Source: Gammaproteobacteria bacterium (GTDB lineage Bacteria > Pseudomonadota > Gammaproteobacteria > GRL18). Taken from it: a DNA stretch of 32,300 nucleotides. Below the pieces are notes generated by a model. It had not been told where the DNA came from and did not search any database. It was given only the letters and a program-made list of their open reading frames with translations. The translations under genes and the position numbers were made by a program. Location: positions 1 to 32,300 of the forward strand of contig WFNB01000086.1 of the NCBI GenBank assembly GCA_015488755.1, written 5' to 3'. This document shows, piece after piece, positions 20,868 through 32,042 of this stretch. The first letter of the stretch is position 1, and each line of letters begins with the position of its first letter.

Positions 20868-21480
20868 ATGACAAGCACCCAACAACGCGCCGAACTGCAA
20901 CGCCAAATATGGCAGATTGCCAACGATGTTCGTGGCTCGGTCGATGGGTGGGATTTTAAACAGTATGTACTAGGCACATTGTTTTACCTATTTATCAGTG
21001 AAAACTTTGCCATTTACATTGAAGGCGGGGATGAAAGCATCCATTATGCTGAGCTTACTGATGATGTGATCACGACCGATATCAAAGACGATGCCATTAA
21101 AACCAAGGGCTATTTTATTTACCCAAGCCAAGTTGTTTTCAAATATTGCTAACGACGCCAATAAGAACGACAACCTGAACACCGATTTAGCGGCGATTTT
21201 TACAGCGATTGAAAGCTCAGCCAATGGCTACCCATCAGAAGTGGATATTAAAGGCTTATTTGCCGATTTTGATACCATCAGTAACCGCTTAGGGAATACT
21301 GTTAAGGATAAAAACAGCCGTTTAGCCGCCGTATTAAAAGGCGTAGCGGGGCTGTCATTTGGTGCGTTTGAAAGCAATCAAATTGACCTGTTTGGCGATG
21401 CCTACGAGTTTTTAATCTCAAATTATGCTGCTAATGTGTATCAGCTTTGGCTCGACCTCAGCAGTCATTTTGTTAAATGA
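20868..21480 (+). pseudogene. hsdM: Frameshifted and truncated type I restriction methylase (hsdM remnant)
   Basis: HsdM is the adenine methyltransferase subunit of type I restriction-modification. The first frame (20868-21152) carries the family N-terminus ([52 protein letters not shown]). It then breaks near 21132, where one extra base shifts reading. The next frame continues the same protein ([23 protein letters not shown], then [29 protein letters not shown]). After NYAAN, near 21435, the expected GKSGGEFFTP stretch is replaced by unrelated codons and a stop. The methylase core with NPPY, and hsdS and hsdR, are absent. Base composition is less AT-rich than its surroundings, which suggests transfer. 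Confidence 0.93.
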
Positions 21481-21508: not shown

Positions 21509-21856
21509 TTATTCTAAAATTGTGATTAAATGAGCTAAAACATCGTCAACAATATAATCAGGAACAGATTCAACTATTTTAGCTTTTCTTGCTTCTAAAT
21601 CTAATGTGCGAATACTGTTGATTAATACAACGCCTTGGGTATCAATGCCACAACCAGATAATGAAACGGTAAACCCTTTAACTCTGGAAAGGTTTCCTCC
21701 TTGAGTGATTGGAGCAATAAGAACGGTACCTAACTGATTAAATTCCGAAGTTGAAAGTACCAAACAAGGTCTAAAATCCCCTTGTAGTTCACGACCAGAA
21801 ATAGGATTTAAAGATACTTTAACGATGTCCCCGCGTTCGTATCTCTTTCGTTTCAC
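21509..21856 (-). CDS. chpB: MazF/ChpB-family mRNA interferase toxin
   Basis: Toxin of a type II toxin-antitoxin system, expected to cleave mRNA at specific short sequences when freed from its antitoxin. The 115-residue product matches E. coli ChpB along its length. Landmarks are YERGDIVKVSLNPISGRELQG, the RPCLVLS strand, FNQLGTVLIAPITQGGN and the VVLINSIRTLDLEAR block. The arginine-proline of RPCLVLS and the ITQGGN loop are typical of active members, and no disruption is visible. Its start overlaps the antitoxin stop by four bases, so translation is coupled. It converges on the hsdM remnant. Confidence 0.93.
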   Translation of the reverse strand: MKRKRYERGDIVKVSLNPISGRELQGDFRPCLVLSTSEFNQLGTVLIAPITQGGNLSRVKGFTVSLSGCGIDTQGVVLINSIRTLDLEARKAKIVESVPDYIVDDVLAHLITILE

Positions 21857-22110
21857 AATGATTCTCTGCCTACAGGTTGAATATCATCCCATTCTTTTAC
21901 CGCATTTGGCATTGGAGCATTTAAATCACACAGAGCAAGAAGCTCTTTAAGTGAGTATTTAGGTTTCATCTTCTTTGGGGTAATCACGATTTTATTTCCG
22001 CTTTCAGAAACATCAATTTCATCTCCCTCTGATAAATTAAGCTTCTTTAATATTATTGCTGGTAAAATCAGCCCTGAGCTATTACCTATTTTTCTAATGT
22101 TGGTTTTCAT
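21853..22110 (-). CDS. chpS: MazE/ChpS-family antitoxin
   Basis: Antitoxin that neutralises the adjacent toxin and represses the operon. An AbrB/SpoVT swapped-hairpin DNA-binding domain covers about residues 4-45 (IRKIGNSSGLILPAIILKKLNL, then IVITP). The C-terminal part (YSLKELLALCDLNAPMPNAVKEWDD) resembles the ChpS toxin-binding tail. The 85-residue length fits (E. coli ChpS is 83). AAGG precedes the ATG on the minus strand. The operator-like repeat at 22159-22179 stands about 50 bp upstream. Confidence 0.92.
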   Translation of the reverse strand: MKTNIRKIGNSSGLILPAIILKKLNLSEGDEIDVSESGNKIVITPKKMKPKYSLKELLALCDLNAPMPNAVKEWDDIQPVGRESL

Positions 22111-22158
22111 AAAAATACCTTTTTAAATCATTACAACTAGAGTAATACAAAACCCAGT

Positions 22159-22179
22159 ATGTTGCAACAATGTTGCAAC
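22159..22179 (-). promoter_or_regulatory. Operator-like tandem palindrome of chpSB
   Basis: GTTGCAAC, a perfect 8-bp palindrome, occurs at 22161-22168 and again at 22172-22179. It forms an 11-bp direct repeat (ATGTTGCAACA, ATGTTGCAACT). On the minus strand a weak promoter, TTGTTG-17-TATTAC, overlaps this block. Such placement fits autorepression by the antitoxin or the toxin-antitoxin complex, with repeats on one face of the helix. Confidence 0.65.
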
Positions 22180-22343
22180 TTTAAGTTGTTGTGTTAATAA
22201 TACATGTTAATGCAAGTTAAAAATGTCCTGTGTTCTAGAATTTAGAAATCTCCTATTTGAATTTTTGCTTTCAATTTTCCTTGGAAAATTAATAGCCCGT
22301 AGGAAAGATTTTGAGATGGAATTTGATTGTGGCTAGGTGGTGC

Positions 22344-22379
22344 AAATCAGAAGTGATGGTCACTGCCAATCTCTGATTT
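22344..22379 (+). other. Nested hairpin of unknown role
   Basis: AAATCAGA (22344-22351) pairs with TCTGATTT (22372-22379). Nested directly inside, AGTGA (22352-22356) pairs with TCACT (22360-22364), leaving a seven-base bulge. A short T-run follows. It could end an unseen short transcript, but no gene precedes it on this strand. Confidence 0.35.
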
Positions 22380-22538
22380 TTCCCTTCAGGTGTCAATGGA
22401 CAAATTTCAGCTGTATGGATTATTCTTGAAATAGTCACTGATTATCTTGATGTTTGACACAAACCAACTAATATTCAAATGCTTCATCAAAAATCGAAGT
22501 CTTGGACTTGTTATTATTTTATTTCATAAGGATATGTT

Positions 22539-23423
22539 ATGCGTATAAGACAGCTTGTGGTTTTCTTTTTCTTTTTATTATTATCATCTTATGCCTTCTC
22601 AGAGGTAACAGAATTAAACTGGGCGGGTTGTGGTATTACCAAAAAGGCTTTTATGGCTGAAATTGCTAAAGCCTATGAAGTTAAGTATGGGGTACACATT
22701 AATTTAGAAGGTGGTGGTGCAACGAAAGGCATTGTGAACACTAAAATTGGTCGATCACATATCGGTGGTACTTGTCGACTTCCTATTCATAATGTTAAAG
22801 AAGAGTCGCAATTAAATCACATTACTATTGTGGCATGGGATGCTTTAGTTGTTGTGACCCATCCAGAAGCGCCTATTGATAATATTACTCGAGATGAATT
22901 GATTGCTATTTTAGAGGGAAAACTAACAAAGTGGGATCAACTCAGTTCATGGAAGGGTAAAAGGAATAAAAAAATACAGCTAATTACTCGTGCTTCAAAT
23001 CTTTCGGGTGTGGGTTTTACCTATAGAAAAATGTTGTTTGGGGATGTTTATAAAGAAATTAACGCATATAAAGAATTTCCCTCATCAGGCCCTGTGGAAA
23101 AATATATAGAGAAAAATGAATATGCAATGGCCATTACCGGTGTTTCAAGTGCCAATAAACGAGATTTAAATATTCTTTCTTTTCAAAATATTAAGCCTTC
23201 GTTTGATAATATTAAAACGGGGGCTTATCAGTTTTATAGACCCTTATATCTGGTTGCAGGTGTGACTCATAAATTTACTAAAGAAGTGAGAAGAGAAATA
23301 GTTCGTTTTGTTAACTTTGTCAAGAGTGATGATGGCGCACAAGTGATCCGTGATAATGGTGTCGTTCCCTATATTGATGCTGTACATCTTATTGCCAAAC
23401 AACCTAATATTTTTGCCATGTAA
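22539..23423 (+). CDS. PstS-like periplasmic substrate-binding protein (orphan)
   Basis: A 294-residue protein of the phosphate-binding-like (PBP) family. Residues 1-21 form a signal peptide with a likely cut after AFS. Family landmarks are LEGGGATKGI, PIDNITRDELIAILEGKLTKWDQL, TRASNLSGVGFTYRKML and AMAITGVSSANKR. The N-terminal loop reads GCGI instead of the PstS GAGA. The motif corresponding to FGASD is IGGTC, so the ligand aspartate appears replaced by C79. The protein has just two cysteines, C31 and C79, both in ligand-loop positions. No pstCAB genes adjoin. The ligand is unknown; phosphate should not be assumed. Confidence 0.8.
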   Translation: MRIRQLVVFFFFLLLSSYAFSEVTELNWAGCGITKKAFMAEIAKAYEVKYGVHINLEGGGATKGIVNTKIGRSHIGGTCRLPIHNVKEESQLNHITIVAWDALVVVTHPEAPIDNITRDELIAILEGKLTKWDQLSSWKGKRNKKIQLITRASNLSGVGFTYRKMLFGDVYKEINAYKEFPSSGPVEKYIEKNEYAMAITGVSSANKRDLNILSFQNIKPSFDNIKTGAYQFYRPLYLVAGVTHKFTKEVRREIVRFVNFVKSDDGAQVIRDNGVVPYIDAVHLIAKQPNIFAM

Positions 23424-23519
23424 ATTCATATGAGATGTAGCATAAATGCTTTGTTCTTTTTTAGCTCACAGGTTAAAATGGTCAGTTAACCAAAAAAATA
23501 ATTTATTGGAAGACTGACA

Positions 23520-25274
23520 GTGAAAGATGCACTACAACAACTCATTTCGCAAGCAATACAATCCCTAATTGATAATAATACGTTAAATGTTGCGATGCCA
23601 GCAATTAAAATTGACCGCACCCGAGATAAAACTCATGGTGACTTTGCTGCGAATGTTGCTATGTTACTTGCCAAGCCTGCTCGAAAAAATCCACGCGAAA
23701 TTGCCTCTTTAATTATTAGTGCCTTGCCAGAAAGTGACTTTGTTGAAAAAGTTGACATTGCGGACCCTGGGTTTATTAATTTTTATGTCAGTGAGACATC
23801 ACGCTTGGATGTTGTTAGTCAAGTAATAGAACAGGGAGATGCCTTTGGGCGGTCTAATAAAGGAGCTGGGAAAAAAGTACAAGTAGAATTTGTTTCAGCA
23901 AATCCTACAGGGCCGTTACATGTTGGCCACGGACGAGGTGCTGCCTATGGTGCAACCTTAGCGAATTTATTAGATGCAATTGGCTATTCTGTGCATTGTG
24001 AGTATTATGTCAATGATGCGGGACGGCAAATGGATATTCTCGCAACGTCTGTGTGGTTGCGTTACCTTGAAAAAAAGGGAGTAGCCATCATCTTTCCTGC
24101 CAATGCCTATAAGGGGGGCTATATTCAAGATATTGTGGCGAATATAAATGATGTAGAAAGCTCTTATTTAGCGACTGCTGAAGAGGTGATGTCAGATCTA
24201 CCCTTGGATGAACCGCAAGGTGGTGATAAAGAAGAACATATTGATGCGTTGATCCAAAAGGCGAAAAAACTATTGGGTGAAGACTCTTATCGCTCTATTT
24301 TTGACTTGGCATTAAATTCAATTTTAGCGGATATTCGTGATGATCTCTCTGAATTTGGAGTGAATTATAATGAGTGGTTTTCAGAGCGATCCTTAATGGC
24401 TAAAGGCTTGGTCAGTCAAGCGATTGAGCGCTTACAAAGCGGCGGCTATATTTATGAACAAAAGGGTGCTTTGTGGTTCAAATCAACCGATTTTGGTGAT
24501 GATAAAGATCGAGTGGTGCAACGAGATAATGGTCAATCAACCTATTTTGCTTCTGATATTGCCTACCACATGGATAAATTTGATCGTGGTTTTGAGTCTG
24601 TTATTGATGTCTGGGGTTCTGATCATCATGGTTATGTGCCCAGAGTAAAAGCAGCCCTAAGTGCTCTGGATCATAATGCCGATGCCTTAGAGGTGTTATT
24701 GGTGCAGTTTGCCAATCTCTACCGAGGTGGGGAAAAAGTGCAAATGTCGACCCGCAGTGGTTCCTTTGTCACCTTAAGAGAATTACGCGATGAAGTGGGT
24801 TCAGATGCTGCTCGTTTCTTTTATGTGATGCGTAAATGTGAGCAACATTTGGATTTTGATTTAGAACTGGCAAAATCAAAGTCATCAGAAAATCCAGTGT
24901 ATTATATTCAATATGCACATGCTCGTATTTGTAGTATTTTTAGGCAATTGAAAGACAAAAATATAGTCTATGAGCAAGCACTTGGTTTGGCTAATTTAGC
25001 TTTATTGGTGGAAGAGCATGAATTAGATATTTTGCAACAATTAGCCAAATACCCAGAAGTTGTGGAAACCGCAGCTAGCCAGCATGAGCCACATTTAATG
25101 GCTCATTATTTACGTGAATTGGCCAATGCCTTGCATACTTATTACAATGCACATCAATTTATTGTTGATGATGAAAAGTTACGTAATGCTCGTTTGTTAT
25201 TGGTTGTCGCAACTCGGCAGGTGATAAAAAGTGGCTTGGAATTACTTGGTGTTTCTGCACCTAGTGAAATGTAG
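23520..25274 (+). CDS. argS: Arginyl-tRNA synthetase
   Basis: Class I synthetase that charges tRNA-Arg. The 584-residue product (E. coli 577) has the N-terminal additional domain with HGDFAANVAM and DPGFINFYV. The HIGH motif appears as HVGH at 134-137 within FVSANPTGPLHVGHGRGAA. The KMSKS region is degenerate (EKVQMSTRSG), as is usual for many ArgRS, and the C-terminal DALR anticodon domain is present. The start is GTG, chosen because GGAAG at 23508-23512 lies seven bases upstream and the N-terminus matches the family. Confidence 0.97.
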   Translation: MKDALQQLISQAIQSLIDNNTLNVAMPAIKIDRTRDKTHGDFAANVAMLLAKPARKNPREIASLIISALPESDFVEKVDIADPGFINFYVSETSRLDVVSQVIEQGDAFGRSNKGAGKKVQVEFVSANPTGPLHVGHGRGAAYGATLANLLDAIGYSVHCEYYVNDAGRQMDILATSVWLRYLEKKGVAIIFPANAYKGGYIQDIVANINDVESSYLATAEEVMSDLPLDEPQGGDKEEHIDALIQKAKKLLGEDSYRSIFDLALNSILADIRDDLSEFGVNYNEWFSERSLMAKGLVSQAIERLQSGGYIYEQKGALWFKSTDFGDDKDRVVQRDNGQSTYFASDIAYHMDKFDRGFESVIDVWGSDHHGYVPRVKAALSALDHNADALEVLLVQFANLYRGGEKVQMSTRSGSFVTLRELRDEVGSDAARFFYVMRKCEQHLDFDLELAKSKSSENPVYYIQYAHARICSIFRQLKDKNIVYEQALGLANLALLVEEHELDILQQLAKYPEVVETAASQHEPHLMAHYLRELANALHTYYNAHQFIVDDEKLRNARLLLVVATRQVIKSGLELLGVSAPSEM

Positions 25275-25286
25275 GATAAAACTAAC

Positions 25287-25916
25287 ATGGCAACTAAGAA
25301 AAAAACCAAGAAAAAAACTGGGGCAACTAGGAACACAGAAAAAAACACCTCCATTTTTCCCAAAGTATTACTTGTTCTGCTTGTGGGTGGTTTTGCTTCT
25401 TTTCTAGTGTATTTAGATCAAATACCAACAGAACATGGGATTACTCCAGAAACGATAGCGGATAAAGGACAGAAAAAAGAGCCAAAAATAAAAGCCATCC
25501 CCAAAAAGCCAAAGCAGAAATTTGATTTTTATACGGTATTGCCTGACCGAAAGGTAACGCAATCAGAGCGTTCCAAGGTGGTAGACAACAAGCCTAAAGT
25601 AGCAGTAAAATCACAAACAGTTCATGTGCAACCAGAAAAAGTCATTTCATCTAAGCAAAGCAAACAAAAAACAACCCCGTACTTTCTTTATCAGTTACAA
25701 GTTGGTGCATTTAAAGAATTGTCTAAGGCCGATGCAATGAAAGCTCGTTTAGCGTTTATTGGTGTGGAGTCTAATATTCAGGTGATGCAGAACAAGGGGC
25801 AGAAAATGTATCGCGTCAGAGTGGGGCCTAGCACGGATGAGAAAAAGATTAACACCATTAAAAAGCAACTTAAAGCACAAAATATTAATACCTTTGTGCA
25901 AAAGCTAAATGGCTGA
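25287..25916 (+). CDS. SPOR-domain membrane protein (FtsN-like)
   Basis: A 209-residue bitopic inner-membrane protein. A lysine-rich cytoplasmic tail (1-23) is followed by one membrane segment (about 24-43), a basic, proline-containing periplasmic linker, and a C-terminal SPOR domain from about 133 (YQLQVGAFKELSKADAMKARL, then RVRVGPSTDEKK). SPOR domains bind denuded peptidoglycan at division sites. It starts 12 bp after argS, the position in which FtsN-like SPOR genes are often found in gammaproteobacteria. It could be the division protein FtsN or a paralogue; the sequence alone does not decide. Confidence 0.85.
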   Translation: MATKKKTKKKTGATRNTEKNTSIFPKVLLVLLVGGFASFLVYLDQIPTEHGITPETIADKGQKKEPKIKAIPKKPKQKFDFYTVLPDRKVTQSERSKVVDNKPKVAVKSQTVHVQPEKVISSKQSKQKTTPYFLYQLQVGAFKELSKADAMKARLAFIGVESNIQVMQNKGQKMYRVRVGPSTDEKKINTIKKQLKAQNINTFVQKLNG

Positions 25917-29639: not shown

Positions 29640-32042
29640 GTGAAATTTTTTAACCAACATTCCATTAAAAAGAAGTTATCACTAATGACCTTATTGATCT
29701 CTTCTATGGCGGTTGCTTTAGGCTGTCTCATTTTTATTTTTACAGAAATTTATTTTAATTGGCAGGAGATGAATCGTCACTATATGCTTCTTGCACAAAG
29801 TATTTCTTTAAATATTCGACCAGCTATTATAAGTAAGGGAGATAAAAAAATATCTAAAACAATTAATTCTGTACTGGCACATTCAGATATAGAAAGTATT
29901 TGTTTGTATTCGGATGATCAGCATTTTTTAAAGACCTACTATATAAAAGACATCCAGAAAAAGTCCTCTCTTTCTTACTTTCCATCCTCTAAGCATTCGA
30001 AAATAAGTACTTATACTCCAGCAATAGACTATCAAAATAATAAAATGATAATCACTATTCCTGTTGGCACAAATAAAAATAAATTAAACAATCTTGTTTT
30101 TGTTATTTCCTTACAGCCATTTTATATGCATACCATTTGGGTGGTTGCTATTGCCCTAATTGTCTTTATTTTAATCAATTTGTTCAGTGTGTCACTTTGG
30201 AAAAAACTTCATCAAGTTATTACCAAGCCTATTGAAAATATGATGAAACTGAGTCATAAAGTATCCCGAAATGAAGATTACTCATTACGAGTTCAAACAG
30301 AGGGTGAAGATGAGTTAGCACAGCTGGGTCATAGTTTTAATGAAATGTTGGCACAAATTCAACTCAGAGATATTGAGCTGGGTGAACATCAGGAGCATCT
30401 TGAGGGGCTGGTTAAGAAAAGAACAGCACAAGCAGAGCAAGCTAATAGAGCTAAAAGTGAATTTCTTGCCATTATGAGTCACGAGATAAGAACACCAATG
30501 AATACCGTTATTGGTATGAGCGAACTATTGCTAAGTACTCGACTTAATAGTAAACAAAGTCGTTATGCCAACATGATTTTAAATTCCAGTACCTTATTGC
30601 TAAAAATTATTAATGATATTTTGGATTTTTCAAAAATTGAAGCCAACAAGCTTAAACTAGAAAAAATTGCCTTTCAACCACAAGCGGTTATGCGTGAAGT
30701 GCAAGAGGTTTTTTTAAATGAAGCAAGCAATAAAAATATTGAACTACTTTTAGAATTAAATAGTAATAATGAAAGCTATGTTTTAGGTGATCCATTCCGT
30801 TTAAAACAAATTCTGAATAATTTGCTATCAAATGCTATTAAATTTACTGATCAAGGAAAAGTAACACTAGGTCTTGAAATTCTTAATGAATATGATACAA
30901 AAATTGAATATTTATTTTCTATTATAGACACTGGGATTGGCATTAAACAAACTATTATAAATGAACTTTTTTCTGTTTTTCACCAAGCAGATAATTCAAT
31001 TACACGTGAGTTTGGGGGGACTGGTCTTGGGTTATCTATTTCGCAAAATCTAGTAAAAATAATGGGTGGTAAAATTCAAGTTAGAAGTGAAGAAGGAAAA
31101 GGCAGTCACTTTTTCTTTAGTCTAACGCTAAAAAAAGCATTGCGAGAAAGTCATTCTAATCGAACATCATTAGATGAAGCGAATGAGAATATGTTATTAC
31201 AAGTGACAAAAACTCATGCAGACAAGGTAATTCTGTTAGTTGATGATGATGCCACTAATCTTGAAGTAATTCATGGCTTAATTTCTGTTTTAGGTTTTTG
31301 TGTTGAAACTGCCAATAATGGTATGGATGCTTTAGAGCAAGTCAAAGAGAAAGGAATTGATTATTTTGATATGATTTTCATGGATATTCAAATGCCTAGT
31401 ATGGATGGTTATGAAACCACCAAAAAATTAAGACAAATGCAACTTAGCATCCCCATTATTGCACTCAGTGCCCATGTTCGACAGGAAGCTTATAATATGG
31501 CCATAGAGGCTGGAATGGATGATTATTTAAGTAAGCCTATAGCAATGAATCAATTAAGTAAAACATTAAAGCAATATTTAGGGCTAACAAGTAGGATGAC
31601 ACCATCATTAATTGCTGAGAAGGATACCCAGTCTAATGTTCTTGGTCATCACTCATTAATAAGACCCACATCAGAATCTGAGTTAAAAAATTTATCCATT
31701 CTTAATTTGGATGAGGTACTCGGTCGTTTGAATAATAATTCAGATTTATTAAGAAAGCTTTTGGCAACGTACCATGAAACCTATGCGAATTTTTTTGAGG
31801 AAATAAAAGCAGCTTATGACTCTCAAAATCAGCCACTATTAAGTGAGCGGGTACATAAGATCAAAGGGGCTGCTCGTTCATTAGGTATTGAGCAAGTTAG
31901 CTCTGATGCAGAAGCATTAGAATCAAAAATAAAAAATGGCCTGCTTATCAATGATAAAATAGTCAGTCAATTAATCTTGCAATTAGGAAATAGTCTACAT
32001 ATTACTATGGCTAAATTAACTGATTTTTTAGAGTCTAAATAA
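29640..32042 (+). CDS. BarA/GacS-type hybrid sensor histidine kinase
   Basis: An 800-residue inner-membrane hybrid kinase. Order: membrane segment 1 (about 14-38), a periplasmic or CHASE-like sensor (about 40-160), membrane segment 2 (about 163-186), HAMP (about 187-240), and HisKA with the phospho-accepting H281 (SHEIRTPMN). HATPase follows with N398, D430 (DTGIGI) and the G-box at 459-465. The receiver has acidic residues D535-D537, acceptor D582 and K632, and the C-terminal HPt has H739 (HKIKGAA). This is the BarA/GacS architecture and all catalytic residues are present. The start is a GTG with a weak ribosome site. No response regulator adjoins, so its partner and signal are unknown. Confidence 0.9.

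Follow-up and report, generated by a model that had tools for sequence, protein, structure and literature searches.

A PstS-like orphan binding protein with two cysteines in its ligand loops belongs to a conserved family associated with sulfur-oxidation genes

Introduction

The DNA analysed here (the window: 32,300 nucleotides, contig WFNB01000086.1 of the Gammaproteobacteria bacterium assembly GCA_015488755.1, forward strand) carries a gene for a PstS-like binding protein that stands apart from any transporter and whose only two cysteines lie in the loops corresponding to the phosphate-binding loops of PstS. A preliminary description had read one of these cysteines as a replacement of the ligand aspartate and had named a disulfide, a metal site or a different ligand as possibilities. 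What such a protein binds, and how it acts with no transporter beside it, are the questions addressed here. According to PMC11582611, it is poorly understood how the regulators of sulfur-oxidising bacteria sense external sulfur; the family to which this protein belongs, which is conserved, predicted to be exported and present in 53 of 369 genomes sampled from the class, is a concrete candidate for that task.

Results and Discussion

The gene and its locus

The features of the gene and the pair of genes upstream of it are as follows:

22539-23423, + strand: orphan gene for a type II periplasmic binding protein with two cysteines (ORF list, PF12849 match, fold match)
22539-22601, + strand: predicted Sec-type signal peptide, residues 1 to about 21 (hydrophobic N-terminus judged by eye; helix 2-17 in the model)
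22629-22631, + strand: TGT codon of C31, the single residue inserted into the loop that follows strand 1 (MAFFT alignment, conservation with C79)
22710-22724, + strand: GGGAT loop, residues 58-62, in which S38 of E. coli PstS becomes A61 (alignment; Ala in 72/75 members)
22773-22775, + strand: TGT codon of C79, at the position of D56 of E. coli PstS in the loop after strand 3 (alignment, conservation with C31)
22836-22841, + strand: W100-D101 pair near the hinge, invariant or nearly so (W 75/75, D 74/75)
23004-23015, + strand: SGVG loop, residues 156-159, in which S139-G140-T141 of E. coli PstS become S156-G157-V158 (alignment; Val in 72/75)
21509-22110, - strand: pair of MazE/MazF-like toxin-antitoxin genes, next to the binding-protein gene on its upstream side (Pfam)

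The open reading frame begins with ATG and encodes 294 amino acids, among which C31 and C79 are the only cysteines. Judged by eye, the N-terminus is typical of a signal peptide, and the protein is thus predicted to be exported. An arginyl-tRNA synthetase gene begins 96 bp downstream, and a gene for a SPOR-domain protein also lies on that side (Pfam). No transporter or pst gene adjoins the window's copy among the neighbours at 21509-25916 that were run through Pfam, and no sulfur or sensor gene is adjacent to it; the gene is an orphan, as first described. Elsewhere in the same genome are a second two-cysteine paralogue (contig C24) and, on contig C23, another PstS-like gene, which adjoins pstC.

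Two other parts of the window are recorded here as observations in their own right. At 20868-21480 (+), Pfam identifies a short N-terminal piece of HsdM (HsdM_N) that overlaps a second ORF with no Pfam match; the region resembles the remains of a type I restriction methylase gene. At 29640-32042 (+), approximately 6 kb downstream of the binding-protein gene, lies a gene for a hybrid histidine kinase with HAMP, HisKA, HATPase, receiver and Hpt domains; nothing ties this kinase to the binding protein as a partner. A phage or plasmid origin of the binding-protein gene was also considered and rejected: tblastn matches were all distant, at less than 60% identity (22.9-27.7% among the matches listed), and no relative turned up when viral contigs were scanned with the family alignment.

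Family assignment and fold

The product matches Pfam family PBP_like_2 (PF12849) with 73.1 bits (E 4.1e-20), well above the gathering cut-off of 27 bits. It falls below the NCBIfam cut-offs of both PstS families: it scores 109.2 bits against 206.6 for TIGR02136, and 17.6 bits against 205 for TIGR00975, a very weak profile match. TIGR00975 has no match anywhere in the window's genome at E <= 1e-5. PF12974, presumably the PhnD-like sequence family of AioX-type binding proteins, gave no match at E <= 1; the Pfam search returned PF12849, PF13531 and a chance-level PF18923. The top PDB sequence matches carry the names of phosphate binders.

An AlphaFold2 model built from a six-row alignment has a pLDDT of 77.9 and a pTM of 0.75, with residues 76-92, the loop that holds C79, below a pLDDT of 50. 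It has the two-domain type II periplasmic binding fold, matching 4gd5 with Z 26.6 and rmsd 2.6 over 241 aligned residues, followed by 4q8r (Z 26.2) and E. coli PstS entries at approximately Z 24. Structural matches were also sought with Foldseek, and the best matches of the model are phosphate-binding proteins. The PstS-like fold of the preliminary description is upheld. In the model the strands at 25-29 and 75-77 end two residues before C31 and C79, respectively; since we take these strands to be neighbours in the PstS-type fold, a C31-C79 disulfide is plausible.

The ligand pocket compared with E. coli PstS

E. coli K-12 PstS was used as the reference and aligned with the protein in three MAFFT modes, all of which give the same correspondences: T10 to I33, S38 to A61, D56 to C79, R135 to R151, S139 to S156, G140 to G157 and T141 to V158. 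All three also place C31 as a one-residue insertion beside A9/T10, where GAG-AT of E. coli PstS reads GCGIT. Both cysteines are thus in ligand loops, as the preliminary description had held. If the side-chain ligands of phosphate in E. coli PstS are, as we assume, T10, S38, D56, R135, S139 and T141, then four of the six (T10, S38, D56 and T141) are changed here, and R135 and S139 are kept. The same holds for the 75 two-cysteine proteins described in the next section, both for the lost ligands (Ile33 in 71/75, Ala61 in 72/75, Cys79 in 75/75, Val158 in 72/75) and for the retained ones (Arg151 in 72/75, Ser156 in 71/75).

Because the hydroxyls of T10, S38 and T141 have become Ile, Ala and Val, phosphate is unlikely to be the ligand. 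These three further losses go beyond the replacement first noticed and strengthen the suggestion of another ligand made then. A conserved aspartate elsewhere in the pocket had been named as an observation that would refute the first reading. D101 goes halfway towards it: the residue is Asp in 74/75 members (Glu in one) and in 28/29 cysteine-free homologues, so that an acid may remain near the hinge.

That the protein is an ordinary additional phosphate-binding protein, served by PstCAB encoded elsewhere, is very improbable. Its PBP_like_2 membership, the phosphate-binder names of its closest PDB sequences and the pstC gene on contig C23 would all suit such a protein, but four of the six ligands are changed, the score against TIGR02136 (109 bits) is little more than half the cut-off, and no pst family occurs among the neighbours run through Pfam.

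The cysteine pair is a family signature

Homologues were collected from relatives, 369 genomes of the class, 398 genomes of the phylum and a genome-contig collection. Among 108 distinct homologues, 75 have both cysteines, 29 have neither, and four do not cover both sites; no homologue that covers both sites has a single cysteine. One of the 75 (L006) is a fragment of 144 residues from a frameshifted gene; the next shortest member has 266 residues. The four that do not cover both sites are L015, whose N-terminus is missing as assembled, L017 and the second L006 piece, which cover neither site, and L159 (G059:C24), which keeps C79. As the C31 segment of L159 is missing in all three forward frames, this gene is probably truncated or degenerate; its genome has no aprA, dsrA or soxB match. 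The cysteine pair is therefore a conserved family signature and not a lone oddity, and can be written, with rare exceptions, as W-x-G-C-[G]-I ... G-G-G-A-T-x-G-I ... G-G-[STA]-C-R ... W-D.

Compared with E. coli PstS, the aspartate-to-cysteine replacement first described stands (D56 to C79). It does not stand against the cysteine-free homologues, in which column 79 is Ser in 23 of 29, Ala in three, and Leu, Phe and Gly in one each, with no Asp. The Phe belongs to G236 (L154, G236:C227), whose protein scores as a family member (250 bits) and has lost both cysteines together, in a genome where aprA, dsrA and soxB are all present; G236 is a natural test of the role of the cysteines. The conservation of the family, the Ser that is usual in this branch, the three additional lost ligands and the tie to sulfur oxidation presented below were all missed in the preliminary description.

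The phylogeny that it had called for was estimated by a fast maximum-likelihood run on 91 sequences, of which 28 are cysteine-free, with both cysteine columns removed. All 63 two-cysteine rows fall on the same side of one branch. Some outgroups are long and the support of this branch is only 66, for which reason a well-supported single origin of the pair was rejected. Members linked to apr genes are dispersed across several branches.

Some homologues have features of their own. L072-L074 are cysteine-free PBP_like_2 proteins that have RGD at one of the loops and GS[LA]R at the other; a pair of them share the VAWD motif. Two tandem copies of the gene occur in each of three genomes (L104, G260:C3; L105, G257:C7; L116, G042:C1), and G123 has three copies on three contigs (L094-L096).

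Distribution among genomes with sulfur-oxidation genes

Family members were found in 53 of the 369 sampled class genomes; 55 genomes were first matched, of which G055 and G387 were excluded, their proteins having no cysteines and low scores. The pair was not seen in three of the 53, namely G017 (a contig-end fragment), G059 (truncated) and G236 (both lost).

The family occurs mostly where genes of sulfur oxidation do. Within the class, aprA was matched in 40/53 family-bearing versus 69/316 other genomes (Fisher p 6e-14), and outside the class, where the association is weaker, in 5/7 family-bearing genomes (all but G393 and G399) versus 11/50 that were not among the matches (p 0.015); both p values are too optimistic, since the genomes share ancestry and sulfur oxidisers make up much of the class sample (aprA in 109/369 at E <= 1e-60, with 103 over the family cut-off). 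When genomes are collapsed to family codes, 26 of the 32 families that carry the binding protein include one or more genomes with aprA. Three further genes were sought in a panel of 80 genomes, comprising the 53 family-bearing ones and 27 picked at regular intervals from the family-negative ones (including G055). They were found in 39/53 versus 10/27 (dsrA), 45/53 versus 11/27 (soxB) and 46/53 versus 10/27 (Sulf_transp, at E <= 1e-20). At least one of aprA, dsrA and soxB is present in 49/53 family-bearing versus 12/27 family-negative genomes, as counted by hand. The four family-bearing genomes in which all three were unmatched are G353 and G357, which are less than 85% complete, and G017 and G059, in which the family gene is not whole. 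In the window's genome there are matches to aprA, soxB, one Sulf_transp protein and two dsrA genes, so the organism is very likely a sulfur oxidiser; the two dsrA genes lie on different contigs (G000:C68:15812 and C81:23913).

This distribution bears on whether the cysteines touch the ligand at all. They could be joined in a disulfide whose role is structural alone, stapling the domain I ligand loops to each other, while an ordinary oxyanion, sulfate or phosphate, is bound without thiols. The predicted export of the protein, the pairing of the cysteines wherever both sites are covered, their joint loss in G236 and their positions in the model, shortly after the strands at 25-29 and 75-77, which we presume to be neighbours, would all be expected of such a staple. 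It leaves unexplained the loss of the T10, S38 and T141 hydroxyls and the concentration of the family in sulfur oxidisers, and we regard it as rather improbable, though the least so of the alternatives weighed here.

Sulfur genes near the family genes

The neighbourhood survey covered 73 distinct places with 76 distinct copies of the gene, using a panel of sulfur genes within 10 kb. Qmo, Hdr, Apr, Sat or Soe genes were found at 12 places, and a YeeE/Sulf_transp gene was directly adjacent on the same strand at three others (G066, G159 and G366). The remaining 58 places, many of them on short contigs, have no credible panel gene within 10 kb; SoeB matches in G513 and G540 were left out as too weak (37-39% identity). 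No conserved transporter operon emerged from 45 neighbourhood loci clustered by BLAST.

The clearest order is qmoA, qmoB, hdrC, hdrB and then the binding-protein gene, all on the same strand, with the last beginning approximately 155-331 bp after hdrB. This arrangement is present in G178, G288, G260, G306, G058 and G169 (four family codes: f156, f124, f36 and f147), although in G306 only qmoB, hdrC and hdrB passed the filter. Downstream, aprA faces the binding-protein gene in G169, G280, G375, G288, G178, G260, G306 and G020; aprB is found at all of these loci except G306, and sat at all except G306 and G020. In G260, AprA and AprB are over their NCBIfam cut-offs and Sat passes both NF003166 and TIGR00339. 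The Qmo and Hdr proteins match only Hdr- and Qmo-type models, below cut-off, and QmoAB-HdrCB and SoeAB are named from arrangement and sequence. QmoABHdrCB and SoeABC are treated as components of sulfur oxidation in PMC6397845. G020 belongs to the window's own family, and in G013, of the window's genus, qmo/hdr genes lie 4-8 kb from the gene.

Among the 40 genomes with both genes, aprA lies within 20 kb of the family gene in eight (G375, G280, G169, G178, G288, G260, G306 and G154, from five families), compared with approximately 0.3 expected for a 12-kb limit. No family gene was found within 20 kb of dsrA (0/39) or soxB (0/45), counts that linkage hidden by draft contigs could lower; a dsr- or sox-linked role was rejected on this zero linkage despite the positive co-occurrence (39/53 and 45/53). 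We consider it highly probable that the two-cysteine family is real and linked to sulfur lithotrophy.

The three YeeE neighbours raise another possibility, that the protein is a periplasmic donor which loads a sulfur compound for a YeeE/SoxT-type (Sulf_transp) importer, with sensing secondary. Sulf_transp is enriched in family-bearing genomes (46/53 versus 10/27), and SoxT1A, according to PMC11582611, imports sulfur for oxidation. Adjacency at only 3/73 places and the seven of 53 family-bearing genomes with no Sulf_transp match at E <= 1e-20 make this a distinctly unlikely main function.

Signalling genes near the family genes

From 74 places (the 73 above and L006), 25 loci were picked by choice, not at random, for a Pfam scan of the neighbours. 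At nine of these an adjacent gene on the same strand encodes a signalling protein:

L006 (a Deferribacteres MAG): response regulator (RR) and hybrid kinase
L106 and L163: chemoreceptor (MCP) with hemerythrin
L107: SpoIIE
L108: MCP with dCache_3
L138: RR-kinase, 4-bp overlap
L145: GGDEF with PAS and dCache_3, 4-bp overlap
L162: CheW and MCP, with a 4-bp overlap with cheW and 14 bp to the MCP gene
L167: hybrid kinase

Kinases thus lie beside three relatives (L006, L138 and L167), and none lies beside the window's own copy. The neighbours at the other 16 chosen loci include HSP90, DnaG, Mfd, CsiV and a P-type ATPase, or have no Pfam match. No pst family was found among the neighbours run through Pfam. 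The signalling genes beside nine relatives suggest, by analogy, an AioX-like sensing role. As a separate observation, in L106 and L163 (genomes G393 and G399, which have no aprA match) the gene is followed by that of a chemoreceptor with a C-terminal hemerythrin domain, hinting at joint taxis towards sulfur and oxygen in these two organisms.

The analogy with AioX also draws attention to thiophilic metals and metalloids, such as arsenite or copper, which both cysteines together might hold; according to PMC5908839, AioX, whose fold is related, uses Cys106 to bind arsenite. Among the Pfam matches of 33 neighbour proteins, some of which had no match, there is no arsenic family, and no His or Met is invariant in a 14-row alignment of the family, M39 being nearly so. 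Such a ligand is the least probable of the alternatives weighed here.

A proposed role in sulfur sensing

Since the relatives are found mostly in sulfur-oxidising bacteria, it is probably a sulfur compound and not phosphate that is sensed or captured. Our preferred reading, which we hold at about even chances, is that the protein is a periplasmic sensor or capture protein for a reduced-sulfur anion, descended from PstS, with a pocket rebuilt from one for phosphate. The ligand would most likely be a sulfane or persulfide species or a small anion, for example sulfite or thiosulfate. R151 and S156 would grip its anionic end, the rest of the pocket being greasy, and C31 and C79, each lying shortly after one of two adjacent strands, would face it as a dithiol or a disulfide and contact or react with its sulfur.

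Once loaded, the protein would act with no ABC transporter of its own. In one route it would dock on chemoreceptors, histidine kinases and diguanylate cyclases and so report the sulfur supply; in the other it would hand the compound to a YeeE/SoxT-type importer. The signalling output is proposed from the sensor-linked members, and delivery to an importer from the three YeeE neighbours. The sensing role, taken separately, seems to us evenly balanced.

Thiol or disulfide chemistry with the ligand is a more tentative part of this proposal. In its most specific form, which we regard as unlikely, sulfite or thiosulfate would open a strained C31-C79 disulfide in the oxyanion pocket, giving an S-sulfonate or thiosulfonate on one cysteine and a free thiol on the other. 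The lobes would then close, and the closed form would signal the sulfur supply to chemoreceptors and kinases or pass the sulfur on. If true, such covalent capture would amount to a redox-chemical switch built on the scaffold of PstS, and several sulfur-oxidising lineages would have this periplasmic receptor for sulfur in common.

Whatever the chemistry, the gene lies within the qmoAB-hdrCB/aprAB-sat region in some genomes and next to chemoreceptors or kinases in others, and the automatic label "phosphate-binding protein" on genes of this family is probably wrong.

Comparison with known systems

The two-cysteine subfamily is not a named family in Pfam or NCBIfam, and no PstS-like protein of sulfur oxidisers was found described in our searches of an open-access library; the words "PstS" and "phosphate" are absent from the main text of PMC11582611. 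The nearest known proteins are of the PstS_2 type (TIGR02136; 4gd5, 4q8r and 1twy), which share the fold, R151, the SG loop, D101 and an RP motif. The present protein differs from them in having Cys for Ser at column 79 and the extra Cys31, in having lost other pocket hydroxyls, in scoring below the TIGR02136 cut-off and in having no pst genes beside it in the window. E. coli PstS (TIGR00975) likewise shares the type II fold and R135, S139 and G140, but the present protein has the equivalents of T10I, S38A, D56C and T141V and reaches 17.6 of the required 205 bits.

The SoxT/YeeE (TsuA) proteins occur in the same sulfur-oxidiser context and are encoded next to the family gene at three loci, but they are membrane transporters. 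The closest functional parallel may be the AioX/ArxX/ArrX sensors of arsenic oxyanions, which, according to PMC5908839, are type II binding proteins that use a cysteine in the pocket for signalling; nine relatives of the window's protein are encoded next to signalling genes. AioX itself belongs to another subfamily, with a PhnD-like topology, and differs in its single cysteine as against two here and in an arsenic instead of a sulfur gene context. Set against these systems, the fold and the superfamily are known, and what is new is the two-cysteine subfamily with its link to sulfur oxidation.
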